From NCBI GenBank assembly GCA_014190235.1, contig BJGC01000010.1, positions 1 through 64,000 on the forward strand: 64,000 nt of DNA, given 5' to 3'. Positions within the stretch are counted from its first letter, which is position 1; each line of letters starts with the position of its first letter. Source of the stretch: Actinomycetes bacterium. Its GTDB lineage: Bacteria; Actinomycetota; Acidimicrobiia; Acidimicrobiales; Ilumatobacteraceae. A program made the translations under genes and the position numbers. Below the pieces are notes generated by a model, which saw only the letters and a list, made by a program, of their open reading frames with translations, had not been told where the DNA came from and did no database searches. Shown here piece after piece: positions 7,422 through 60,750 of this stretch.

Positions 7422-8789
7422 CTACGCCTTTAGTCTGGCAATGATGTCGGTGACCTGGTCGTACACCTGCTTGCGCTCGCGCATCAGCCGCTGTGTTTTG
7501 TCAACACCGTGAATGATTGTGGTGTGATCTCGACCACCAAATAACCGAGCAATGGCGGGATAGCTCAGTTCGGTGAGTTCGCGAAAAATGTACATTGCGC
7601 TCTGGCGAGCCGATACCAATGGACGTTGGCGACTCTTGCCTTTCATGGCGTCAACAGAAAAGCCCATATACAACGAAATTTCAGCAAGAAGTTCTTCGTC
7701 GGTGCGGTGTTTGGGCGCTCGCACGGTGAGCAAGTCAGTGAGCTGGGTTTGAGCCATCGCGACAGTTGCTGGCTCACGGGTGAGGTGTGCGTAGGCAGCC
7801 ACTCGAATGAGGGCCCCTTCGAGTTCACGAATGTTGGACGTGATGTTGGACGCAATGAACTCCAGGACATCCGCTGGTAATGGGGTGTTGTCGCGCTCGG
7901 TCTTGTTGCGCAAAATCGCCAAACGGGTTTCCATGTCTGGCGGCTGGATGTCGGTGATGAGACCCCAACGAAACCGACCACGCAGACGATCCTCAAGTGT
8001 GGGGATGGCGTCGGGCACCCGGTCGGACGAGATGACGATCTGCTTATTTGCTCCGTGGAGACTGTTGAAGGTGTGGAAAAACTCCTCTTGGAGTCCTTCT
8101 TTTCCTTCCATAAATTGAATGTCGTCAATCAACAAGACGTCGATGTCGCGGTAGCGACGCTTGAACGCCGTTGTTGTGTTGGTGCGAATTGCGTCAACGT
8201 ATTCATTCAAAAAAGTTTCTGTTGAAACGTAGCGAACTTCATGATGTGCGTAATGCGCATGCACATACCAACCGATTGCTTGCAAGAGATGTGTCTTGCC
8301 AAGACCTGCAGAGCCGTAAATAAAAAGAGGGTTGTATGAGCGGCCAGGTGTTTCGGCAACACGCAAAGCGGCAGCCAATGCGAACTGGTTTGAGGCTCCT
8401 TTAACAAACGTGTCAAAGGTGTATCGCGGGTTGAGCCCGACGGCTAATCCCTTGCCCTGATTAGGTTTTTTGATGGTTTCTGGACTCAATGCCGCATTGT
8501 CAACAGCTACCTGCGTCGGGGAATCATTTGTGCTGTCTTGGGATTCGCCAACCTCAACAACAAGTGCGCGGTCACTCTCTCCAATTTCATCAAGTGCATC
8601 TAAAACAAGTGGGCGATAGCGAGAGATAATTCGGTCGCGGACATGTGCATTAGGAACCTGCAAACGCAACGATGATTCGTCACTCGCAAGTGCAACAACA
8701 TCATTGAATGTCGAGAACCACACGCCCTCAGACACCTGCGCTTTTAAGAGTTGTTGTGTTGCATTCCACACTGATTCATGGTCACTCAT
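7422..8789 (-). CDS. dnaA: Chromosomal replication initiator DnaA
   Basis: AAA+ initiator that binds DnaA boxes and melts the origin. Domain I covers roughly residues 1-80, followed by a variable linker. The AAA+ domain has Walker A GSAGLGKT (159-166) and Walker B VLLIDDIQF. The C-terminal DNA-binding domain has the signature GGRDHTTIIHGVDK. At 455 residues it is a compact DnaA with a short domain II. The ATG is preceded by GAAGGGGC. Several DnaA boxes lie in its upstream region, which suggests autoregulation. The gene is transcribed away from rpmH, marking the divergence point of the origin region. Confidence 0.98.
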   Translation of the reverse strand: MSDHESVWNATQQLLKAQVSEGVWFSTFNDVVALASDESSLRLQVPNAHVRDRIISRYRPLVLDALDEIGESDRALVVEVGESQDSTNDSPTQVAVDNAALSPETIKKPNQGKGLAVGLNPRYTFDTFVKGASNQFALAAALRVAETPGRSYNPLFIYGSAGLGKTHLLQAIGWYVHAHYAHHEVRYVSTETFLNEYVDAIRTNTTTAFKRRYRDIDVLLIDDIQFMEGKEGLQEEFFHTFNSLHGANKQIVISSDRVPDAIPTLEDRLRGRFRWGLITDIQPPDMETRLAILRNKTERDNTPLPADVLEFIASNITSNIRELEGALIRVAAYAHLTREPATVAMAQTQLTDLLTVRAPKHRTDEELLAEISLYMGFSVDAMKGKSRQRPLVSARQSAMYIFRELTELSYPAIARLFGGRDHTTIIHGVDKTQRLMRERKQVYDQVTDIIARLKA

Positions 8790-49141: not shown

Positions 49142-49468
49142 TCAGGAGTCCTGTTGCATCGTGGCCCACAGGCCATGGTCGTGCAGTCTGTAGACGTCTA
49201 GTTCTGCGCGTTCACGAGAGCCGTTGGAGACGACCGCTCTGCCTTTTTCGTGCACGTCGAGCATGAGTTCGGTGGCCTTTTCATTGGAATAGCCGAATAA
49301 TTTTTGCAGGACGAATGTGACGTACGACATCAAATTGATTGGGTCGTTCCAGACCAACACGATCCATGGAGTGTCAAGGTCAACGATGTCTGATGTATCG
49401 GGCTCGTCGGCGATAACAGGCTGTTCGACGGGTCGCACGGAGGGGCTCACAGGAACATTGTGGCGCAA
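49142..49468 (-). CDS. clpS: ATP-dependent Clp protease adaptor ClpS
   Basis: N-end-rule adaptor that hands proteins with destabilising N-termini to the Clp protease. The core is clear: [46 protein letters not shown], with the Asn-Asp substrate pocket and the family VHxxGxAVV. Length is 108 residues from the TTG at 49468, or 102 from a GTG at 49450; neither has a good ribosome-binding site. It is divergent from ctaB and overlaps its possible longer start. Confidence 0.93.
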
Positions 49469-49507
49469 TTAGGGGTTTTTGGCTACTGCTCGTACGATGA
49501 AGTCCTT

Positions 49508-50443
49508 ATGTCGATCAAAGTTCGCCCCGTTGTGCCATCGCGGCTTGTCGGCAGGGGTGGGCATGAATCGACGCGAACACCGTCATCTGTCGTGGGCGCG
49601 TATGTTGCCTTGACCAAACCGCGGATTATCGAACTACTCCTCATCACCACAGTGCCAACGATGGTGCTAGCAGAGGGTGGCTGGCCATCATGGGGTCTAG
49701 TACTCGTCACGTTGCTTGGCGGCACGTTGGCAGCCGGCGGAGCAAACGCAATCAATATGTACATCGATCGAGACATTGATGCACTGATGGAACGCACCAA
49801 AATGCGACCGCTCGTCACGGGTGTGATCGCCCCCCGAAACGCATTGATCTTTGCTATTTCGCTTGAGTTCATCGCATTTGGCGTGTTGTGGGCGGGCGCC
49901 AATCTCTTGTCCGGAATCCTGGCGATCTGTGCAACGTTGTTCTATGTGTTTGTGTACAGCCTGTGGCTCAAACGAACGAGCAAGCAAAACATTGTGATTG
50001 GCGGTGCTGCTGGTGCTGTCCCCGTGTTAGTGGGGTGGGCAGCGGTCACAAATTCAGTCAGTTGGTCGGCGGTATTGCTGTTTGCGGTCATATTTTTCTG
50101 GACACCACCCCATTTTTGGGCTCTTGCAATTCGCCACAACGATGACTACAAAGCGGCCGGAGTTCCGATGTTGCCCGCCGTGGTTTCTCTGCGTCAGACC
50201 ATCGCATCAATGGTTCGCTACTGCATCGCCGTGGTCGTGGTCAGTTTGGCGCTGATCCCTGTTGCTGATTTGGGGTGGATCTACGGCGTCGTGGCTGCAA
50301 TCGTTGGGGCGTTGTTCTTGGGAGGCACAATCGCACTAGGTCGTAGACCTAGTGAAGCAGGAGCAATGCGGCTCTTTTCTTTCTCAATTACGTATCTCTC
50401 GCTCTTGTTTTTGGCTCTCACGGTCGATGTTCTTGTGCGCTAA
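49508..50443 (+). CDS. ctaB: Protoheme IX farnesyltransferase (haem O synthase)
   Basis: UbiA-type membrane prenyltransferase that makes haem O, the precursor of haem A for cytochrome oxidase. The first Asp-rich motif is NMYIDRDIDALMERTKMRPL, and the second region contains HNDDYKAAGVPMLP. About nine membrane helices are visible. The ATG at 49508 gives 311 residues; an upstream GTG (49460) would overlap clpS. It lies 139 bp upstream of the oxidase operon, which uses its product. The haem A synthase ctaA is not in the window. Confidence 0.94.
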   Translation: MSIKVRPVVPSRLVGRGGHESTRTPSSVVGAYVALTKPRIIELLLITTVPTMVLAEGGWPSWGLVLVTLLGGTLAAGGANAINMYIDRDIDALMERTKMRPLVTGVIAPRNALIFAISLEFIAFGVLWAGANLLSGILAICATLFYVFVYSLWLKRTSKQNIVIGGAAGAVPVLVGWAAVTNSVSWSAVLLFAVIFFWTPPHFWALAIRHNDDYKAAGVPMLPAVVSLRQTIASMVRYCIAVVVVSLALIPVADLGWIYGVVAAIVGALFLGGTIALGRRPSEAGAMRLFSFSITYLSLLFLALTVDVLVR

Positions 50444-50582: not shown

Positions 50583-52196
50583 ATGACCACAATTCACACG
50601 AATGTTGATGTAACCGCGGCTGGCAGTCGCGCGGCATCTCTTGTGTCTGTCATCGCCGACTGGATCACCACGGCCGACCACAAAAAAATAGGTCGATTAT
50701 TTATTGGCTCGTCACTTGTAGCGGCTGTAGCCACTGCGGTTCTCGCTGCGTTTCTTGGACTCGAACGAATAAGTGCATCTAGTTATTCAATTCTCAACGG
50801 AGACTCCGTCGTGCAACTTTTTGCCGCGTATCAGTTTTCTCTTGTCTATGCCATTGTTGCCCCACTTTTTATTGGACTGGCCATTGCTGTTGTGCCGTTG
50901 CAGTTGGGTTCGCGTTCATTGTCGTATCCGCGTCTGGCCGCGTTTGGCTTTTGGGCGTGGGCGAGTGGCCTGATCATCACACTTGTCGCCATAGGCGCCA
51001 ATGGTGGCCCTGGTGGCGGCAACTCCAACATGGTGGATCTGTATCTCTTGGCACTCGGACTTGTCGCGCTCGGACTTAGCGCAGCATCGGTCAGCATCGC
51101 TGTGACTGTGCTGACATCACGCGCCCCCGGCATGTCGCTCTTACGAACACCAATGTTTAGCTGGTCTGCACTCATGGGTGCGATGGCCACAGTTTTGACA
51201 TTGCCTGTGTTGATCGGAACACTCGCATACCTCTACGTTGACCACACATACGGGCGTTTGGCGTTTGGTGGCAACGTAGATGTCAATAAGTGGATCGGTT
51301 GGTCTTTCAATCAGCCTCAGACTTTTATCTTTGCCGTGATGGCCGTTGGTGTCTTGGCAGAACTGGCTCCGATTGTTGCTGGTGTTCGACAACCGCTTCG
51401 ACCCGTCATGCTGATCGGCATCACACTTGTTTCGACTGCGGCGTTGGGTGCGGCAACACAAAGTACTCACGCGATGTCGTGGACCGGAACAACCTCGGAC
51501 AAAGTTCAAGAATTCATTCCGTTCGCGTTATTTAATCTTCTGCCGATTCTGGGAGTGCTCATCGTGCTAGCGCTCGGCGGACTGGCAGCAAAGGCTGGTC
51601 GAGTGAAGCCCACTGCAAGTTTCGTGTTCGCATTTCTTGGAACCGGAATGATTCTTGTCGGCATGCTTGTTCATGCATTGTCATTGATTGGCCCTGCCGC
51701 ACTGGCCGGAACAGTGGCTCAAGAATCATCAACGCTGTACGTGGTGTACGGAGCAGTCATGGTGGCGCTCGGTGCGATTATGCACTGGGGTCCCAAGTTG
51801 TGGGGTCGACGACTACCCGAAAAAGAAATGTTTGGTCTTGCCGCACTATCGCTGGGGGCGACAGTTTTAAGTTCTTTGCCCTACGTTCTTGCTGGCTTTC
51901 TTGATCAACCAGCCAATGCAGTTGCTGGATGGTCATACGACGTATCTGCACTTTTAAATACAGTCTCAACGATCGGTCATGCGCTGATGTTCATCACCGT
52001 GCTTGGTTTCATTGGCCTCGCATTCAAACATTTCACGACCGGAGCACTTGCTGGTGACGATCCGTGGGATGCCCATTCTTTGGAATGGTCAATTCCGTCG
52101 CCTGCACCTGCTGGCAACTTTGCTGATATTGCAACCGTTGGTTCTGCCGAACCATTACTCGATGTCAAACCCCCACGACAAGGAGTATCGGCATGA
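50583..52196 (+). CDS. Cytochrome c oxidase subunit I paralogue lacking haem/copper ligands
   Basis: A 537-residue, about 12-helix protein clearly homologous to the real subunit I at 55205. Shared landmarks are DHKKIGRLF, PLQLGSRSLSYPRL, RAPGMSLLRTPMFSW, WGPKLWGR and DPWDAHSLEW. Yet the working residues are gone: the low-spin haem His is Tyr83; the CuB His, proton Glu and cross-linked Tyr of HPEVY read Gln244, Gln246 and Phe248; the HH pair reads Thr295-His296; the HFH motif is deleted (LYVVYGAVMVALG); and the D-channel Asp is Ser. It cannot bind the usual cofactors. It heads the oxidase operon and is coupled (ATGA) to a subunit III paralogue. A scaffold, assembly or regulatory role is inferred. 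Confidence 0.85.
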   Translation: MTTIHTNVDVTAAGSRAASLVSVIADWITTADHKKIGRLFIGSSLVAAVATAVLAAFLGLERISASSYSILNGDSVVQLFAAYQFSLVYAIVAPLFIGLAIAVVPLQLGSRSLSYPRLAAFGFWAWASGLIITLVAIGANGGPGGGNSNMVDLYLLALGLVALGLSAASVSIAVTVLTSRAPGMSLLRTPMFSWSALMGAMATVLTLPVLIGTLAYLYVDHTYGRLAFGGNVDVNKWIGWSFNQPQTFIFAVMAVGVLAELAPIVAGVRQPLRPVMLIGITLVSTAALGAATQSTHAMSWTGTTSDKVQEFIPFALFNLLPILGVLIVLALGGLAAKAGRVKPTASFVFAFLGTGMILVGMLVHALSLIGPAALAGTVAQESSTLYVVYGAVMVALGAIMHWGPKLWGRRLPEKEMFGLAALSLGATVLSSLPYVLAGFLDQPANAVAGWSYDVSALLNTVSTIGHALMFITVLGFIGLAFKHFTTGALAGDDPWDAHSLEWSIPSPAPAGNFADIATVGSAEPLLDVKPPRQGVSA

Positions 52197-52798
52197 CACT
52201 GACACTTCCGTCTGCCGTCGCGCCAGCACCAAAACGACAGGCACTTGTTGCCACTGCGGTTGCTAGTGCTGCAATCACCATGCTGATGGCAGGCATGCTC
52301 GGCGTATGGTTGCGTTTTAGAGCCGCCGCCGACACACGCATGTCGTCAGATGGACGAAAAGTTATTAAGGACTGGTTGCCATCCGACATCAAGATTCCAG
52401 AAGTGTCTTCTAACACGATGCTGATTGGATTATTTTTTGGATGCGTCATGGCGCAATGGGCTGTGTACGCAGCGAAGCGCGATGATTCGTCACACCGCTC
52501 CGTCGCGCTAGCGGTGTGCTTGCTGATGGAAGTTGCCATTATTAATGCACAGGTCGCGGTGTATAGCCAGATGAAAATTGGTGTCACTGACGGCGTGTAC
52601 CAGACAATGTTTTACGCAATCACTGGAGTTGTCGTTGTGTTGTTAGCGGTTGGTATGGCGTTCACTTCGGTGACATGGTTTCGATCTGTTGGTGGTCGAG
52701 ATAACGACAGTCACGTAGTGGCTGCTCATGCGTTGTATTGGTATGTCCTCACTGCAGTTTTTTGTGCGGTGTGGTTTGTGGTGTACGTACAGAAGTAG
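52193..52798 (+). CDS. Cytochrome c oxidase subunit III paralogue
   Basis: A 201-residue, five-helix protein with the subunit III fold. Comparison with the genuine subunit III at 57195 aligns QVAVYSQMKIGVTDGVYQTMFYAITG with QVYEFTAFYNEGLGF and SSSFYTLTG, and ALYWYVLTAVFCAVWFVVYV with GLYWHFVDIVWIIIFTLVYL. The conserved Glu of QVYEF is Val123, and the two histidines of TGFHGVHVTVG are replaced (TGVVVVLLAVG). It starts inside the stop of the subunit I paralogue (ATGA), so the two are made together and probably assemble with each other. The function is unknown. Confidence 0.75.
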   Translation: MTLTLPSAVAPAPKRQALVATAVASAAITMLMAGMLGVWLRFRAAADTRMSSDGRKVIKDWLPSDIKIPEVSSNTMLIGLFFGCVMAQWAVYAAKRDDSSHRSVALAVCLLMEVAIINAQVAVYSQMKIGVTDGVYQTMFYAITGVVVVLLAVGMAFTSVTWFRSVGGRDNDSHVVAAHALYWYVLTAVFCAVWFVVYVQK

Positions 52799-52804
52799 GA
52801 CGAC

Positions 52805-53926
52805 ATGTTTACGACAGGATCAAAATATTGCTTCGGCATCGCAGGTCTTGGGTCGTTGGGCGCTGTTGTGTACATGGTCTTGGTGCACCCGTGCGATGTC
52901 GGTGTGCTTGCACTCCTCGGTATTGCGATTGCGATGTCACTTGTTGGTGGTGTTGCTCAGTTCACGGGTGACTTTGACGTTGATTCACCAAATGATGCCC
53001 TCACAGCAAATGCAGTTGCACCCGCAAACAGCATGTGGCCCCTGGTGCTGGCTCTTGGCGTTGTGTTGTTGCTGGTCGGGATGACAACCGATCCAATTAT
53101 TTTTATTTTAGGAATTGTCATCATTATTGCTGCCGGAGTTGAGTGGGCTCTGCAGTCATGGGCAGAGCGTGCGTCAAGCGATTCTGCTTTCAACAGATTT
53201 GTGCGCGAGCGCGCGCTAACTTCACTCGAGTTACCTATTTTTGTCGGTGGCGGTGTGGCAATCATCGCAGTGGCATTTTCGCGAATCATGTTGGCAGTGT
53301 CTCCACATAGTGGAGCAATCTTGTTCATCGTGATAGCCACTGCTGTTCTCATTGTTGGTTTCTTGGTTTCTGTCAAAACAAATATCAAGAAGAGCATGAT
53401 TGCCGCGACGTGTGTGCTTGGAGCGGTCGTGCTATTGGTATCCGGTGGTATTGCCGGATTCAACGGAAATCGCGAAGAGCTTGTGGTCGCTGCAGCAGAG
53501 GATCATTATTCTCACAAGGAATGTGAGGCTGCCGCATCGGAGCACTTCGACAAGAACTCAAATAATGCTGTCAGCATGAAGTCTGGGATATCTGCCACTA
53601 TCCGAGTCAAGGATGGCAAATTGACCGCTCAACTGATTGGCATCGATGCGCAAGTTCAGGCGGTCACGGTGCAACGCTCGAACTTAACCACTATTTTGTT
53701 TCGCAATCTAGATGATGCGCAGTATCGACTTGTTGCCAATCTGGGAACTAAAAAAATCGCTGATACTGGCGTTGAAGAAGCGATCGTAGACTGCACACAA
53801 ATGACCGGAAAAAATCAGACTCAGGCATTGATTCTCAAAATCAGTAAGCCATCGGCGTCCTCGGGTCCGTACACGCTGACCGTTCCAGGTCTTGAAGGCC
53901 AAGAGATTGCAGTGGTAGTGCCGTGA
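52805..53926 (+). CDS. Seven-helix membrane protein with C-terminal degenerate cupredoxin-like domain
   Basis: A 373-residue protein. About seven membrane helices fill residues 8-218; the pair at 78-113 (MWPLVLALGVVLLL, PIIFILGIVIIIAAG) resembles the subunit IV-like pair at the end of the real subunit I. An extracytoplasmic domain (225-373) has a cupredoxin-like ending: ILFRNLDDAQYRLVANLG and SGPYTLTVPGLEGQEIAVVV. In copper proteins the equivalent spots hold His, Cys and His; here they are Gln306/Tyr307, Val360 and about Gln366. Two cysteines (240, 330) may form a disulfide. It may stand in for subunits II and IV of the non-catalytic complex. It overlaps ctaC (GTGA). No confident family assignment. 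Confidence 0.6.
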   Translation: MFTTGSKYCFGIAGLGSLGAVVYMVLVHPCDVGVLALLGIAIAMSLVGGVAQFTGDFDVDSPNDALTANAVAPANSMWPLVLALGVVLLLVGMTTDPIIFILGIVIIIAAGVEWALQSWAERASSDSAFNRFVRERALTSLELPIFVGGGVAIIAVAFSRIMLAVSPHSGAILFIVIATAVLIVGFLVSVKTNIKKSMIAATCVLGAVVLLVSGGIAGFNGNREELVVAAAEDHYSHKECEAAASEHFDKNSNNAVSMKSGISATIRVKDGKLTAQLIGIDAQVQAVTVQRSNLTTILFRNLDDAQYRLVANLGTKKIADTGVEEAIVDCTQMTGKNQTQALILKISKPSASSGPYTLTVPGLEGQEIAVVVP

Positions 53927-55188
53927 GTCACGACAGCACATTGACAGATTCGCAGCAGAACCTGAGTACCTTCAAGAAGATGAATCAAGTAATGCCTCTG
54001 CGCCGAATTGGTTTGGGGCTTGCAGCGAGCAGTGCCATCTTCTTGGCCGGTTGTGCACGAAATGCACCGCAAGACACGTGGCAGCCCAAAGGCGAAAACG
54101 CCGAGAAGATCAACACCTTGCAGTGGATGGTGTTTCCGCTTGCCGGAATCGTCGGAGTTGCGGTCTTTGCGTTGATCGCTTACATTTTGTGGCGTTTTCG
54201 TGACAGAGGTCAGGCGATTCCTCATCAGTCGCACGGAAATCCCGCAGTAGAAATCACGCTAACTATTATTCCAGCACTCATTTTGAGCGTTGTCGGTGTG
54301 TTCACGTTCAAGGGCATTTTCGAGCTAGCGCAAACCAATGACACGCAGATGGTAATCAACGTCACCGGACAACAGTGGTGGTGGGAATATGACTACCCAG
54401 CACAAGTGGTGAACGGGGTCGAGATCACTCAGCCAATCATCACATCTGGTCAACTTGTCATACCCACTGGCACTAAAGTGTTATTGCGCGAGACAAGCCG
54501 CGATGTCATTCACTCGTACTGGATCCCGGCACTCAACGGCAAAAAAGATGCAGTTCCTGGTCGCATCAATCTCTTGCGGATTCAAGCAAACAAACCAGGA
54601 ATTTTTGCTGGTCAGTGCACAGAATTTTGTGGACTATCTCATGCCAACATGCGTATGGAAGCGGTGGCCCTTGGCCCCGAGGACTTTGCGGCATGGATCG
54701 CCAATCAGCAGCGCAACGCCGAATCACCCGCCCAAGCCACCCTTGCTCAGGAAGGCGAGGCAGTTTTTCTTAACCAATGCATTCGTTGTCACCAGGTCAA
54801 TGGACTCAAAAAGGCAGACGGCACGGCGGCCATTGCGGCCCCAGATGAAAACGTATATTCAGGCGCGGTGCCGAACCTCACCCACTTGATGAGTCGCAAC
54901 ACATTCGCTGGGGCAAAGTTTGATCTGCTGACAGCTGATTGTCGCAAGAACGTGTGGTCAGCATCGCCTGATGAATTTGGTTCTGCGTATCTCAAGGGCG
55001 TCACATCTGATTGTCTCAATCAGACCAATCTTCGTGGCTGGTTGCGTAATGCCCCCGCAATGAAACCGATGTACGCCGATCCCACCAAACTTGCAGTATC
55101 TGACGGCAAGTATCGTGGTATGCCTAATCTCGGATTATCCGAGTCCGACATCGACAAACTTGTCGCTTATCTCTCGACACTGAAATAA
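53923..55188 (+). CDS. ctaC: Cytochrome c oxidase subunit II with fused cytochrome c
   Basis: Electron-entry subunit of an aa3/caa3-type oxidase. A lipobox-like FLAGC (Cys44) is followed by two membrane helices (about 68-90 and 110-130). The CuA domain has QQWWWEYDY, HSYWIP (His197) and GQCTEFCGLSHANM (Cys232, Cys236, His240, Met243). A C-terminal cytochrome c domain has CIRCH (286-290) and axial Met400 in RGMPNLGLS, with a long insertion holding an extra Cys pair (Cys340, Cys364). Length is 421 residues. The start is GTG, coupled to the upstream gene. It is the first catalytic subunit of the operon. Confidence 0.95.
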   Translation: MSHDSTLTDSQQNLSTFKKMNQVMPLRRIGLGLAASSAIFLAGCARNAPQDTWQPKGENAEKINTLQWMVFPLAGIVGVAVFALIAYILWRFRDRGQAIPHQSHGNPAVEITLTIIPALILSVVGVFTFKGIFELAQTNDTQMVINVTGQQWWWEYDYPAQVVNGVEITQPIITSGQLVIPTGTKVLLRETSRDVIHSYWIPALNGKKDAVPGRINLLRIQANKPGIFAGQCTEFCGLSHANMRMEAVALGPEDFAAWIANQQRNAESPAQATLAQEGEAVFLNQCIRCHQVNGLKKADGTAAIAAPDENVYSGAVPNLTHLMSRNTFAGAKFDLLTADCRKNVWSASPDEFGSAYLKGVTSDCLNQTNLRGWLRNAPAMKPMYADPTKLAVSDGKYRGMPNLGLSESDIDKLVAYLSTLK

Positions 55189-55204: not shown

Positions 55205-57202
55205 ATGGCCATTATCGAACGCCCAGCCCCCACCGCACCTATCTTGTTGCGCGCCCCCGTGACACCATCTCAGTCAATGGGCATTGTGCGTCGTCCTGTG
55301 ACGTCAACGGGCTGGAAATCATGGGTCTTCACTGTTGATCACAAAAAAATCGGCATCATGTATGGAGTCTTTGCGATGTTCTTTTTCATCGTCGGTGGCG
55401 TTGAAGCGCTATTAATCCGTTTGCAACTTGCTGCACCAGACGGCAAAATTCTCAGTGCTGACTTGTACAACCAAATGTTCACGATGCATGCAACCACGAT
55501 GATCTTTTTGTTCGCTATGCCCATGGCGGCAGCATTTGCGAACTACTTTTTGCCGTTGCAGTTAGGCGCGCGTGACGTTGCATTTCCGCGTCTCAACGCA
55601 TTAGGGCTGTGGTTGTTAGTGGCTGGCGGCCTCATCTTAAACTCATCGTGGTTTTTAGGCGGCGCTGCAGATGGTGGTTGGTTTATGTATTCACCAAACT
55701 CCGGACCAGTTTTTTCTCCAAGTAACGGTGTTGACTTCTGGACACTCGGCGTACAGATTGCCGGCTTCGGCTCGCTCATCGGTTCAATCAACTTGATCGT
55801 CACCATTCTCAACATGCGCGCACCGGGCATGACACTCATGAAGATGCCGGTATTTTGCTGGATGATTCTGGTGGTGCAGTTCTTGCTGGTGTTCTCGTTG
55901 CCTGTGATCACCGTTGCACTCGTACTACTCACCTTTCAGCGTTCTTTTGGTGCTACGTTCTTCGATGTTGCGCAAGGAGCAGACCCCTTATTGTGGCAAC
56001 ACTTATTCTGGATCTTCGGGCACCCTGAGGTGTATGTGCTGATCTTGCCGGCCTTTGGGATTATCTCTGAAGTGCTGCCGACGTTTTCTCGAAAGCCACT
56101 TTTCGGGTATCCGTTTGTGGTTTTTTCGGGAGCGTCAATCGGGCTCGTCGGTTTTGGTGTGTGGTCTCACCACATGTTTGCAACTGGTCTCGGTCCAATT
56201 TCAGTTGCAGCGTTCTCAATTGCAACGATGGCAATTGCAATTCCGACTGGTGTAAAAATCTTTAACTGGACGCTCACGATGTGGGGCGGAAAAATCTGGT
56301 ATTCAACGGCAATGAAGTTCGCCATCGGACTCATCGTGCTGTTCACAATCGGTGGCTTGTCGGGCGTTACCCATGCAGTGGCTCCGTCAGATACGCAACA
56401 AACCGACACGTATTACATCGTGGCCCATTTCCACTACGTACTTTTTGGTGGAATGGTATTTGGTCTTTTCTCCGGCTTTTACTACTGGTGGCCCAAGGTG
56501 TTCGGAAAAATGCTCAACGAAAAACTGGGTGGCTGGAATTTTTGGTTAATGGTGATCGGCATGAATATGACCTTTGGACCCATGCACATCTTGGGCCTAC
56601 AAGGTCAACCACGACGCATGTATGTCTGGACCGAAGCCCGCGCTGGTGAGGGGTTCTTCAACTTTGGTTTCTGGAACCGAGTTGCGTCACTCGGTTCTCT
56701 GATTCTGGCCATCGGAATTTTACTCTTCCTAATCAATGTGGTGCACACCACCCGCAAGGGCAAGCCTGCTCCACTCGATCCGTGGGATGCGCGCACACTT
56801 GAGTGGATCACGACGAGTCCCCCCAAAGAGCACAACTTCGATCGCATTCCTGTCGTGCACCATCTGGACGACTTCTTTCATCGCAAGTACCAAGAGGACG
56901 CCACTACTGGCACGATGGTGCAGATCGCTACGGGTGAGCAATTAGTTCGTGATGAAGAAGCAAATGCCGATGCACATATTCATCTGCCGTCTCCGTCGTA
57001 TTGGCCAATTGCGATTGCGATTGGTGTTGGCACCCTTGGCATGGGAGTGGTGTACGGAGTTCCGATCATGATTGTTGGCGTTCTCATCATCCTCGGTTCT
57101 TCTTTTGGATTCGTTCTCGAACCGTCCGTTGCAGACGACATTGATTATGACCCACCGATGTCTGGTGGCCAAGACACGAAAGAGTTGGCACCCCTTGGAT
57201 GA
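55205..57202 (+). CDS. ctaD: Cytochrome c oxidase subunit I (catalytic)
   Basis: Haem-copper oxidase catalytic subunit reducing O2 and pumping protons. All ligands are present: His95 (MHATTM), GHPEVY (His273, Glu275, Tyr277), His322-His323 (WSHHMF), HFH (408-410) and D-channel Asp124 (GARDVAFPR). About 12 core helices are followed by a C-terminal extension (about 565-665) with two extra helices (YWPIAIAIGVGTLGMGV, PIMIVGVLIILGSSFG), like a fused subunit IV, making it 665 residues rather than about 550. It is 16 bp after ctaC and overlaps ctaE by 8 bp. Confidence 0.97.
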   Translation: MAIIERPAPTAPILLRAPVTPSQSMGIVRRPVTSTGWKSWVFTVDHKKIGIMYGVFAMFFFIVGGVEALLIRLQLAAPDGKILSADLYNQMFTMHATTMIFLFAMPMAAAFANYFLPLQLGARDVAFPRLNALGLWLLVAGGLILNSSWFLGGAADGGWFMYSPNSGPVFSPSNGVDFWTLGVQIAGFGSLIGSINLIVTILNMRAPGMTLMKMPVFCWMILVVQFLLVFSLPVITVALVLLTFQRSFGATFFDVAQGADPLLWQHLFWIFGHPEVYVLILPAFGIISEVLPTFSRKPLFGYPFVVFSGASIGLVGFGVWSHHMFATGLGPISVAAFSIATMAIAIPTGVKIFNWTLTMWGGKIWYSTAMKFAIGLIVLFTIGGLSGVTHAVAPSDTQQTDTYYIVAHFHYVLFGGMVFGLFSGFYYWWPKVFGKMLNEKLGGWNFWLMVIGMNMTFGPMHILGLQGQPRRMYVWTEARAGEGFFNFGFWNRVASLGSLILAIGILLFLINVVHTTRKGKPAPLDPWDARTLEWITTSPPKEHNFDRIPVVHHLDDFFHRKYQEDATTGTMVQIATGEQLVRDEEANADAHIHLPSPSYWPIAIAIGVGTLGMGVVYGVPIMIVGVLIILGSSFGFVLEPSVADDIDYDPPMSGGQDTKELAPLG

Positions 57203-57806
57203 TGTAGCAGTTCTTACCAGTCACGAAACTGGGCACGGTCATTCCACGTCCACCGGATTATCTAATAACAAGATGGCGATGTGGCTGTTCTTGGGTTCAG
57301 AGTGCTTGCTTTTTGGCGGCTTAATTTCTACATACATGCTGTATCGCGGCCGAATCACCCAAGGGCCACGACCATCTCAGATTTTTGATATTCCGTTCAC
57401 ATCGGTCAGCAGTTTTGTCTTGCTGATGTCGTCGCTCACCATGGTGTTGGCAGTGACTTCGGCGCAACGAAAAGACAATGTACGCACAAAGTTGTGGCTA
57501 ACAATCACGGCGTTACTTGGAGCCACCTTTGTTGGTGGTCAAGTGTATGAGTTCACTGCTTTCTATAACGAAGGTTTGGGCTTCACGACAAACCTTTTCA
57601 GTTCGAGTTTCTATACTCTCACTGGGTTCCACGGAGTACACGTGACGGTCGGTGTAATTATGCTTTTGTCTCTACGGGGCATTATCAGCAAAGACAAAGA
57701 CACAGGTGATCGCCCAGAAGTTGTCGAGTTAATTGGTCTGTACTGGCACTTTGTTGACATCGTGTGGATCATTATTTTCACCCTCGTGTATCTGATCCCG
57801 GCATAA
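57195..57806 (+). CDS. ctaE: Cytochrome c oxidase subunit III
   Basis: Structural and proton-uptake-supporting subunit. A His-rich start (TSHETGHGHSTSTGLSNN) is followed by five helices: KMAMWLFLGSECLLFGGLIS, SFVLLMSSLTMVLAV, GGQVYEFTAF (conserved Glu), the TGFHGVHVTVG signature and GLYWHFVDIVWIIIF. The start is set at TTG 57195, which overlaps the ctaD stop and gives 203 residues with the expected N-terminus; ATG at 57273 would delete the conserved N-terminal stretch. ctaF follows 12 bp later. Confidence 0.93.
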   Translation: MDDVAVLTSHETGHGHSTSTGLSNNKMAMWLFLGSECLLFGGLISTYMLYRGRITQGPRPSQIFDIPFTSVSSFVLLMSSLTMVLAVTSAQRKDNVRTKLWLTITALLGATFVGGQVYEFTAFYNEGLGFTTNLFSSSFYTLTGFHGVHVTVGVIMLLSLRGIISKDKDTGDRPEVVELIGLYWHFVDIVWIIIFTLVYLIPA

Positions 57807-57818
57807 AGGAGTCTGCTG

Positions 57819-58136
57819 ATGAACGCCACCGCTACTGATACTCACGAGCAGCATGACTCTCATGCACACGGTCTGAGTGATGCAACAGCAATCAAGATCG
57901 CTCTGATCTTGGGGGTAATGACGGCGCTTGAAGTGTCAACCTATTTTGTGGATTTTGGTGCGTTTTTTATGCCAGTCCTGCTGGTGTTGATGGTCGTCAA
58001 GTTTCTGACGGTGGTGAGTTACTTCATGCATCTCAAGTTTGAGCACCAGATGTTCAAACTCTTGTTCTACACCGGCCTCGGACTGGCGTTGTTTGTGTAC
58101 TTCGTGGCATTGGCAACCTTTAAGTTCTTTAGTTAA
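57819..58136 (+). CDS. ctaF: Cytochrome c oxidase subunit IV (caa3/CyoD type)
   Basis: A 105-residue, three-helix subunit. A His-rich N-terminus (THEQHDSHAHG) is followed by ATAIKIALILGVMTALEVSTYF, MPVLLVLMVVKFLTVVSYFMHLKFE and a third helix ending in ATFKFFS. The VKFxxVxxYFMHLKFE motif is the prokaryotic COX4 signature. AAAGGAG lies 7-8 nt before the ATG. It sits between ctaE and ctaG in the oxidase operon. Confidence 0.9.
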   Translation: MNATATDTHEQHDSHAHGLSDATAIKIALILGVMTALEVSTYFVDFGAFFMPVLLVLMVVKFLTVVSYFMHLKFEHQMFKLLFYTGLGLALFVYFVALATFKFFS

Positions 58137-58154: not shown

Positions 58155-59084
58155 ATGCTGTTCGCTGGTGCTGGAGTTTCTCTGAACCCAAATCCGTGGC
58201 GTTTTCAACCACACCCCGAAGTGTGGTTGCTGATTGTTTTTCTGATTGCAGCTTTCATCTATGCAGTGAGAGTGATTGGTCCGCGAGTCGCACCTGCTGG
58301 ACATGTCATTAGCCAACGACAGACGCGACTATTTATTCTGATGATTACGCTTCTCTGGCTGGCGACCGATTGGCCAATGCATGATATTGCCGAGGAATAT
58401 CTGTATTCCGTGCACATGGTGCAACACCTCATCTTGTCGTACTTTGTTCCGCCACTTGCTCTGATGTGTGTGCCCGAGTGGATGTTTCGACTACTGATCG
58501 GGACTGGTCGCACCTACCGAGTCGTGCGGTTTGCCACCAAGCCTGTGGCGGCGGGTCTCGCTTTCAATCTCGTAGTGATGATCACTCATATTCCTAAATT
58601 GGTAAATCTCAGCGCGAGCAAAGGCCCGCTGCACTATTCGCTTCACATCTTATTAGTGACAACTGCGCTCATGTTTTGGATGCCCGTGTGTGGGCCACTG
58701 CGCGAATGGCAGATGAAGCCTGGCGGCAAGATGATCTACATGTTCGTGTTGTCGTTTGTGCCAACGATCCCTGCAGGCTGGTTGACGTTTGCCAATGGTT
58801 CGGTATATCGCCACTACGACACGCCGATTCGTGTGTGGGGTATCTCAGTGTTGGGGGATCAGCAGGCGGCGGGTGGAATCATGAAACTTGGAGGCTCGGT
58901 TTTTATCTGGGCGATCATTATCTTTTTGTTCTTCAAACGCTTCATCGGTAATTTTCATGAACAACAGAGTTATCTCCCTGACGACAACATCCCGGACTCA
59001 GAGATTGTTGGTACTGAGGAGCCACTGTTGTACGAAGACGTCACCCGCGCATTTGCCCAAGTTCGACCCGCAAAAGAAGAGTAA
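58155..59084 (+). CDS. ctaG: Cytochrome c oxidase assembly protein, caa3_CtaG family
   Basis: A 309-residue protein with about seven membrane helices, needed for copper insertion in caa3-type oxidases. Conserved features are WPMHDIAEEYLYSVHMVQHLILSYFVPPLAL with its paired histidines, NLVVMITHIPKLVN, LHYSLHILLVTTALMFWMPVCGP and SVLGDQQAAGGIMKLGGS. It is the last gene of the operon, 18 bp after ctaF. It ends before the convergent ABC exporter, with no clear terminator hairpin in the 26-bp gap. Confidence 0.9.
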   Translation: MLFAGAGVSLNPNPWRFQPHPEVWLLIVFLIAAFIYAVRVIGPRVAPAGHVISQRQTRLFILMITLLWLATDWPMHDIAEEYLYSVHMVQHLILSYFVPPLALMCVPEWMFRLLIGTGRTYRVVRFATKPVAAGLAFNLVVMITHIPKLVNLSASKGPLHYSLHILLVTTALMFWMPVCGPLREWQMKPGGKMIYMFVLSFVPTIPAGWLTFANGSVYRHYDTPIRVWGISVLGDQQAAGGIMKLGGSVFIWAIIIFLFFKRFIGNFHEQQSYLPDDNIPDSEIVGTEEPLLYEDVTRAFAQVRPAKEE

Positions 59085-59110: not shown

Positions 59111-59836
59111 CTAGGACCAACGAAATAGTTGCGCCGCAACTAGTGGCGCGATACCTGCCCACAGCAACAACACCACAAGCGAAGTGCCAAGCATTGATGA
59201 CGTACCAGTAAGTGCTTCACGCATGACATCTGCAAGTGCGCTAGAGGGCAACACATGACCAACAGCCCGCAACGGTGTGGGCAATTTGTCCATCGGGACA
59301 ATGATTCCGCCTAGCAATAGCAGCACTAAATACAAGCCGTTTTGTGCAGCCAGATTAATTTCTCCACGAAGTGTGCCCGCCATCGTGAGGCCGATTCCGG
59401 CAAACGCACTAGTGCCCAGTAAGACAATAAGAATTGCCAGCAACCATGTGGCGTTCGCCGGGCGCCATCCAAGACTCAGACCTATTGGCAACAGCACAAT
59501 CATCTGCACGACTTCAACACAAAAGACGCTGATTATTTTTGCAAGTATCAGCCTTGAGCGACCAAGTGGTGTTGCACCCAAGCGCTTGAGCACTTGATAT
59601 GAACGTTCAAAACCAGTTGCGATTCCTAAACTCACCATGGCACTTGACATCACTGCAAGAGCCAGAATGCCAGGCAATAAAAACTGTGCTGGTTTATCTG
59701 TGTCGGTCGGGAGAACGTCAACAAGACCAAAAAAAACTAAGAGCAAGACCGGAATGCCAAGTGTCAGAAGCAATTGCTCTCCGTTGCGCGATACCAGTTG
59801 TAACTCTGCGCGCAGCTGGGCTCGAAGAGCACTCAT
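59111..59836 (-). CDS. ABC-2 type transporter permease
   Basis: A 241-residue permease with about six membrane helices. After a soluble start (MSALRAQLRAELQLV) come helices such as LLTLGIPVLLLVFFGLV and a PGILALAVMSSAMVSLGIA segment, with the ABC-2 block GIIVPMDKLPTPLRAVGHVLPSSALADVMREAL. It works with the ATPase encoded just upstream, whose stop overlaps its start by 4 bp. The cargo is unknown. A similar ABC exporter lies beside ctaB/ctaA in mycobacteria, so a link to oxidase or haem biogenesis is possible but unproven. Confidence 0.88.
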   Translation of the reverse strand: MSALRAQLRAELQLVSRNGEQLLLTLGIPVLLLVFFGLVDVLPTDTDKPAQFLLPGILALAVMSSAMVSLGIATGFERSYQVLKRLGATPLGRSRLILAKIISVFCVEVVQMIVLLPIGLSLGWRPANATWLLAILIVLLGTSAFAGIGLTMAGTLRGEINLAAQNGLYLVLLLLGGIIVPMDKLPTPLRAVGHVLPSSALADVMREALTGTSSMLGTSLVVLLLWAGIAPLVAAQLFRWS

Positions 59837-60750
59837 GTCTTGTTCTCCGATGCTGCAACAATGCGCGAGAACATATCCTCGAGAGACTCAAGTGAGGACA
59901 CATGATGCAGCGGTAAATTCTTCTCGTGTAGCCACGACGACAGTGCAGCAATAATTGCTGGGGTAGACACCACGGCGATGTTGTAGTCGCCGCTATTTTG
60001 CGCGCGAGTAACACTGCAGCCAAGTGCGCGAGAGAGATCTGCAATATCAAGGTTCTGATTAGAAGTGAATCGTGTGTATTCGTGTCCTTTGCGAAGTTCG
60101 CCGATTGACCCTGCTGCTGCTACACGTCCGTGATCGAAAATAACAATATGGTCGGCAACCTTTTCTGCTTCTGCCAGTTCATGTGTTGCCAGCAGCACGG
60201 TGCATCCATCGTGAGCCAACTTTGTCACGATGTCACGGATAATGAGTCGGCCGTTTACATCAACCCCCGACGTGGGTTCGTCAAGAAAAACAACATCGGG
60301 CTGTGCCGCCAGGACCAGCGCGAGCGACACTCGTTGTTGTTCGCCGCCTGATAGTCGTTTCCAAATATGTTGTCGACGTTCATCCAGGCCCACCATTGCA
60401 ATGAGTTCGTCAGCGTTGCACTGCTTGTCGTAGATGTCGCAAAATTGTTGCACTACATCGCAGACCCGGGCACTGGGGTATATGCCGCCGCCTTGCAACA
60501 TCACCCCCATGCGTGTGGTGAGTTTGTCGTGGTCATGGATTGGGTGCAATCCCAGCACCTCAACATGTCCGGAACTGCCCTTGGCAAACCCCTCACATAC
60601 TTCGATCACAGACGTCTTTCCGGCACCGTTTGGCCCCAAGATGGCGGTGACCTCGCCAGACGCGGCATGAAAAGAAACATTATTAACGGCACAAATATCG
60701 CCATATCGAACCACGAGGTTTTCTACGATGACGCCGTTCACAGACTCCAC
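59833..60750 (-). CDS. ABC transporter ATP-binding protein
   Basis: A 305-residue ABC ATPase of the drug/DrrA-like exporter type. Walker A GPNGAGKTSVIE is near residue 39, the Q-loop region is VMLQGGGIYPSA, the signature is LSGGEQQRVSLA, Walker B is VVFLDEPTSGVD and the switch is ATHELAEAE. A C-terminal extension of about 90 residues follows the nucleotide-binding domain. The start is taken as GTG at 60750; another GTG three codons later is possible. It overlaps the permease gene by 4 bp and is divergent from serS, 50 bp away. Confidence 0.92.
   Translation of the reverse strand: MESVNGVIVENLVVRYGDICAVNNVSFHAASGEVTAILGPNGAGKTSVIEVCEGFAKGSSGHVEVLGLHPIHDHDKLTTRMGVMLQGGGIYPSARVCDVVQQFCDIYDKQCNADELIAMVGLDERRQHIWKRLSGGEQQRVSLALVLAAQPDVVFLDEPTSGVDVNGRLIIRDIVTKLAHDGCTVLLATHELAEAEKVADHIVIFDHGRVAAAGSIGELRKGHEYTRFTSNQNLDIADLSRALGCSVTRAQNSGDYNIAVVSTPAIIAALSSWLHEKNLPLHHVSSLESLEDMFSRIVAASENKT

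Follow-up and report, generated by a model that had tools for sequence, protein, structure and literature searches.

In cytochrome bd, CydB is a cofactor-free structural subunit that forms a pseudosymmetrical heterodimer with CydA, placing a half without cofactors beside the catalytic subunit (PMC9846854). In M. smegmatis, the equivalent of subunit III in the III2-IV2 supercomplex consists of CtaE together with CtaF, which mediate contact with complex III (PMC8361435). The three adjacent genes described here, g1, g3 and gX, invite comparison with both systems. The g1 protein shares with subunit I of the A-type heme-copper oxidases (COX1/CtaD; PF00115, NF050116) homology over its full length, the 12-TM fold, several invariant Pro, Gly, Arg and Trp residues and a DPWxxxTLEW tail, but it lacks the ligands of heme a, heme a3 and CuB as well as the residues of the K- and D-channels, and it belongs to a separate clade. 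The g3 protein and the N-terminal half of gX resemble actinobacterial CtaE and CtaF, respectively; however, g3 lacks the HGxH motif of CtaE, and in gX the CtaF-like half is fused to a 3TM-cupredoxin module. The CydA/CydB pair can serve as a works-like model only; its protein family is unrelated to g1-g3-gX, and the partnership proposed below is putative. We file the set as a non-catalytic variant inside the heme-copper oxidase superfamily and not as an oxidase. Searches of the open-access literature yielded no description of such a set.

Layout of the locus

The window, that is, the whole 64,000-nucleotide stretch that was analyzed, comes from an actinomycetote genome of 2.02 Mb that is 96% complete and probably belongs to the Ilumatobacteraceae, in the order Acidimicrobiales. 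Its + strand carries the series ctaB, g1, g3, gX, ctaC, ctaD, ctaE, ctaF and ctaG (Table 1). The reading frames of g1, g3 and gX are all intact over the interval assigned to them in the preliminary description, which had these genes heading the oxidase operon; because ctaB lies upstream, however, they sit between ctaB and ctaC. Of the 4-bp overlaps originally reported, those of g1 with g3 (ATGA) and of gX with ctaC (GTGA) are present, whereas g3 and gX are separated by a 6-bp gap. A promoter scan gave signals at chance level only. An ABC-2 transporter pair at 59111-60750 of the window is convergent with the operon, and the same neighborhood is found at another locus, L034. Elsewhere in the genome, the only candidate for a heme A synthase (CtaA; G000:C6:40350-41168) has a weak Pfam match in two pieces.

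Table 1. Genes of the oxidase region and the evidence for each assignment (window coordinates)
Feature	Position	Strand	Evidence or remark
ctaB, heme O synthase	49460..50443	+	ORF; conserved as 5' neighbor at the loci with g1-g3-gX
g1, COX1/CtaD-like pseudo-subunit I, 537 aa, 12 TM helices, no cofactor ligands	50583..52196	+	PF00115, AF2, Foldseek, ligand comparison
g3, COX3/CtaE-like pseudo-subunit III, 201 aa, 5 TM	52193..52798	+	PF00510, PDB COX3 chains
gX, CtaF-like 4TM half + 3 TM helices + C-terminal cupredoxin-fold domain without Cu ligands, 373 aa	52805..53926	+	Profile matches, AF2, Foldseek
ctaC, genuine subunit II, CuA + cytochrome c domain	53923..55188	+	COX2, COX2_TM and Cytochrom_C domains
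ctaD, genuine subunit I, all ligands present; presumed catalytic partner	55205..57202	+	PF00115 522 bits; canonical ligand string
ctaE, genuine subunit III	57204..57806	+	PF00510 66.6 bits; ORF opens at 57072, likely start near 57204-57210
ctaF, genuine subunit IV (COX4_pro)	57819..58136	+	PF03626
ctaG, Caa3_CtaG assembly factor	58155..59084	+	PF09678 128 bits

Three subunit-like proteins and their missing ligands

The g1 protein matches PF00115 over the whole profile with 107 bits (cut-off 34.8), as against 522 bits for the genuine CtaD, and falls below the curated cut-offs for aa3-type CtaD (NF050116 and TIGR02891: 153 versus 880 and 171 versus 671 bits, respectively). Its AF2 model is a bundle of long helices like that of COX1 (pLDDT 82, pTM 0.87), which Foldseek aligns with mycobacterial CtaD at a TM score of 0.83 (E 5e-22); we infer that g1 takes the form of a heme-free bundle of 12 TM helices. 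In an alignment to CtaD, the g1 of the window has replaced the heme ligands Ha1 (H to Y), Ha2 (H to L) and Ha3 (H to S) as well as the CuB ligands CuB1 (H to Q), CuB2 (H to Q) and CuB3 (H to S). In addition, E286, Y288, K362 and D132 have given way to Q, F, V and S, respectively, and both propionate arginines are gone. When 59 g1 copies were compared with 73 catalytic copies from the loci examined, the CuB site was found to be absent from every g1, none of which has more than one of the three CuB histidines. D132 and K362 are kept in 0/59 g1 copies each and E286 in 4/59, and the heme-a histidine pair is retained in 8 of 60 copies, every one of them basal. Gaps, undetermined bases and a single RW variant aside, the catalytic copies have the canonical set. 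In g1, 10% of the cells at catalytic positions are kept, versus 47% at other COX1-invariant positions (permutation p ~1e-4). The replacement residues are themselves conserved: among 52 heme-less copies, Gln occupies CuB2 in 43 and CuB1 in 37, and this Gln pocket is joined by R38, R62, R269 and R273 as new conserved polar residues. Evolution of g1 is about 4 times faster than that of ctaD, the best-kept regions being TM3-5 and the C-terminal tail. In COX1, the face formed by TM3-5 is the one on which subunit III packs.

The match of g3 to PF00510 (COX3) scores 37.8 bits (cut-off 23.8) and extends to COX3 chains of the PDB (E 4e-7); the HGxH motif is found in 55 of 57 CtaE and in 2 of 59 g3 sequences. 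These data uphold the initial view of g1 and g3 as look-alikes of subunits I and III, of a g1 that has replaced its catalytic residues, and of a non-catalytic set that has kept its folds. The third gene had been taken for a subunit II/IV, of which only the likeness to IV stands. No significant Pfam match was obtained for gX itself. A gX profile compared with PDB sequences matched actinobacterial CtaF ("cytochrome c oxidase polypeptide 4") through its first ~118 positions (E 2e-6 to 1e-4) and auracyanin through its C-terminus (E 5e-7); PF12270 was found in 2 of 19 gX members, the CtaF homology being limited to the N-terminal half. AF2 modeled the membrane part poorly (overall pTM 0.41) and the C-terminal beta-sandwich confidently (pLDDT 81-91), from an alignment that included rows with intact cupredoxins. 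The best PDB matches of this domain in Foldseek were cupredoxins or cupredoxin-fold domains of copper enzymes (E 1e-4). The type-1 copper ligands (His, Cys, His, Met) are absent from the gX of the window and complete in six basal relatives. Since the profile matches point to CtaF and auracyanin, and a separate 3TM-cupredoxin homologue exists elsewhere, gX reads as a fusion protein whose N-terminal half, with 4 TM, resembles CtaF (subunit IV) and whose C-terminal half is a 3TM-cupredoxin. A degenerate subunit II was rejected because the basal members have a type-1 site (C-x2-H-x2/3-M) and not CuA, and because the N-terminal half is CtaF-like. Judged from their sequences, g1, g3 and gX together mirror a D-E-F-cupredoxin block that lacks a subunit II of its own.

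The separate homologue was seen in several other actinomycetote classes (L218-L234; e.g. L218:6565-7215), where a gene for three TM helices and a type-1 copper cupredoxin, homologous to TM5-7 and the cupredoxin of gX, lies directly after ctaG (or ctaF) in a genuine aa3 operon (ctaC-D-E-F-G); some of these genes encode tandem cupredoxin domains. Unlike gX, it is a gene apart, with its copper site intact and a single catalytic CtaD alongside. It is possibly an overlooked electron-donor subunit.

Distribution and ordered loss of cofactors

The order ctaB-g1-g3-gX-ctaC(-ctaD) is kept at 56 of 59 loci, the exceptions being two contig edges and one deletion. The set spans one order of the Actinomycetota, probably the Acidimicrobiales, and the same cluster is present in an Ilumatobacteraceae MAG (L188). 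In a sample of 49 genomes, mostly one per family of the order, the set is inherited together with the type-1 caa3 operon, being present in 34/34 genomes that have this operon and in 1/15 that lack it (Fisher p 2e-11, kinship and linkage ignored); part of this co-occurrence could stem from linkage in one gene cluster. In the lone exception (G059), g1, g3 and a truncated gX abut the ABC genes that are found 3' of ctaG in the window, so that ctaC through ctaG appear to have been deleted. The junction of the truncated gX with the ABC-2 transporter genes lies at ~7822-8353 of the corresponding locus, L034, where g1 and g3 are still open. Three loci of the same class but outside the order (L087, L098 and L182) have type-1 caa3 operons without the set; since these operons work without it, an oxidase of this type has no intrinsic need of the module. 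Within the order, families without the set (f22, f26, f28, f20 and f58) have only another COX1 type, of ~565 aa, with a small CtaC-like gene.

Additional genes separate gX from ctaC in a few lineages. In the most basal one (L112:6086-10565), they include a Mn/Zn-type ABC transporter, with a Fur-like gene on the opposite strand. A TlpA/ResA-like thioredoxin gene takes this place in L042 (7552-8100), L041 (7557-9137, C-terminal part), L044 (8591-9232) and L202 (9226-9798), which belong to a lineage that retains heme ligands.

In a tree of 42 representative rows, rooted on catalytic COX1, the g1 copies form one clade (support 100/100), from which L112 branches first (node support just 92/54), followed by L202/L046/L042/L041/L044, then L037, then L033 and lastly all others, among them the window. 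The eight lineages named here all keep the pair of heme-a histidines, and six of them also have a complete type-1 copper site on gX; the a3 histidine is often kept too in basal members. Parsimony places the loss of CuB on the stem and calls for two changes in copper and two in heme a. The idea that heme and copper were independently lost together was considered and dropped, the tree offering one or two independent contrasts, which leaves the heme/copper correlation without statistical weight. Because the events are so few, we speak of a sequence of losses and not of a tested correlation. Since the basal relatives keep the heme-a ligands and a type-1 copper site, the ligand-free "ghost" state of the window's family presents itself as the end of a series, one of ordered cofactor loss with the fold kept and not of decay. 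In the basal lineages, a low-spin heme and a blue copper were probably still bound to the module, which may have transferred electrons; a role in sensing or relay is plausible for these members.

Role of the module

We are somewhat inclined to regard g1-g3-gX as a pseudo-oxidase module without catalytic activity, which stems from the subunit I/III/IV-cupredoxin portion of an aa3-type oxidase and serves the caa3 oxidase as an obligatory partner in structure or assembly. We infer that it binds the genuine caa3 oxidase in this capacity, as a scaffold that would pair with it. As mycobacterial CtaE and CtaF make subunit III and touch complex III, g3 and the CtaF-like half of gX could serve g1 likewise, as its subunit-III equivalent. 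In the window's family, the role of a protein scaffold would be the only one left. Points against this reading are the share that linkage could have in the co-occurrence, the type-1 caa3 operons outside the order that lack the set, and the faster evolution of g1 relative to ctaD. More tentatively, and with distinctly less confidence, one could envision a respiratory oxidase in which a catalytic half is obligately paired with a paralogous half free of cofactors, as a heme-copper equivalent of CydA/CydB. It would have arisen by the stepwise stripping (CuB first, blue copper next, heme last) of a second oxidase once endowed with heme a and type-1 copper, and would be the norm across a widespread actinomycetote order.

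It is hardly credible that the set is a decaying duplicate devoid of function, even though its catalytic residues are gone and its evolution is faster than that of ctaD. Among close relatives, dN/dS is 0.07-0.17 for g1, 0.04-0.20 for g3 and 0.085-0.15 for gX, compared with 0.02-0.05 for ctaD and 0.05-0.18 for ctaC and ctaE, a range that the set shares. These values, far below 1, indicate purifying selection; the ORFs are intact across dozens of families, no frameshift was seen in the g1 of relatives, and the fold prediction is confident. Low dN/dS, taken with the 34/34 co-retention and the conserved synteny, rules out simple decay. The preliminary description had also read the set as selected, and conservation across an order and the COX1 fold of the g1 model bear this out. 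The main rival, which we consider unlikely but serious, is a transient assembly platform that would hold CtaC, CtaD and CtaE during the insertion of heme and copper and be absent from the mature enzyme. The location of the module between ctaB and ctaC, with ctaG downstream, would suit such a platform, as would the TlpA-like gene that accompanies it in L202 and in the copper-retaining lineages L041, L042 and L044; reduction of apo-CuA sites is a function of TlpA-type proteins (PMC9145763). However, a three-protein complex of 24 helices would be large for a chaperone, no tlpA was seen next to the operon in the family of the window, and the low dN/dS and conserved pocket replacements suit a stable partner equally well.

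Less probable still is a redox or gas sensor, or an electron relay, in which the module would continue to bind a cofactor or ligand (heme via other residues, quinone, O2 or NO) and inform or feed the oxidase. The basal members, with both heme-a histidines, often the a3 histidine and a complete type-1 copper site, speak for it, as does conservation of the Gln-lined pocket, but every known ligand is gone in the window's family, the copper ligands of gX included, and the proteins have no fused output domain. Very little weight can be given to an ion- or proton-conducting role of the metal-free COX1 bundle: COX1 folds contain proton pathways, and the four conserved arginines and the Gln pocket of g1 are new polar features, but hardly any g1 copy keeps the D- and K-channel residues D132, K362 and E286.

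If g1-g3-gX indeed partners the caa3 oxidase, in its structure or its assembly, new subunits of a respiratory complex are to be expected in a widespread bacterial group. The series of lineages shows that the metals of an entire oxidase module can disappear in order while fold and operon position are retained, and it provides natural material for telling apart what COX1 needs for its structure and what it needs for catalysis. Such a clade could be overlooked, since one published heme-copper oxidase classifier discarded sequences lacking the six histidines (PMC3084760). Homology-based annotation may, for its part, take g1 for an additional subunit I of cytochrome c oxidase and so inflate oxidase counts in metagenomes. 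Our scan of genome contigs returned mostly catalytic COX1.
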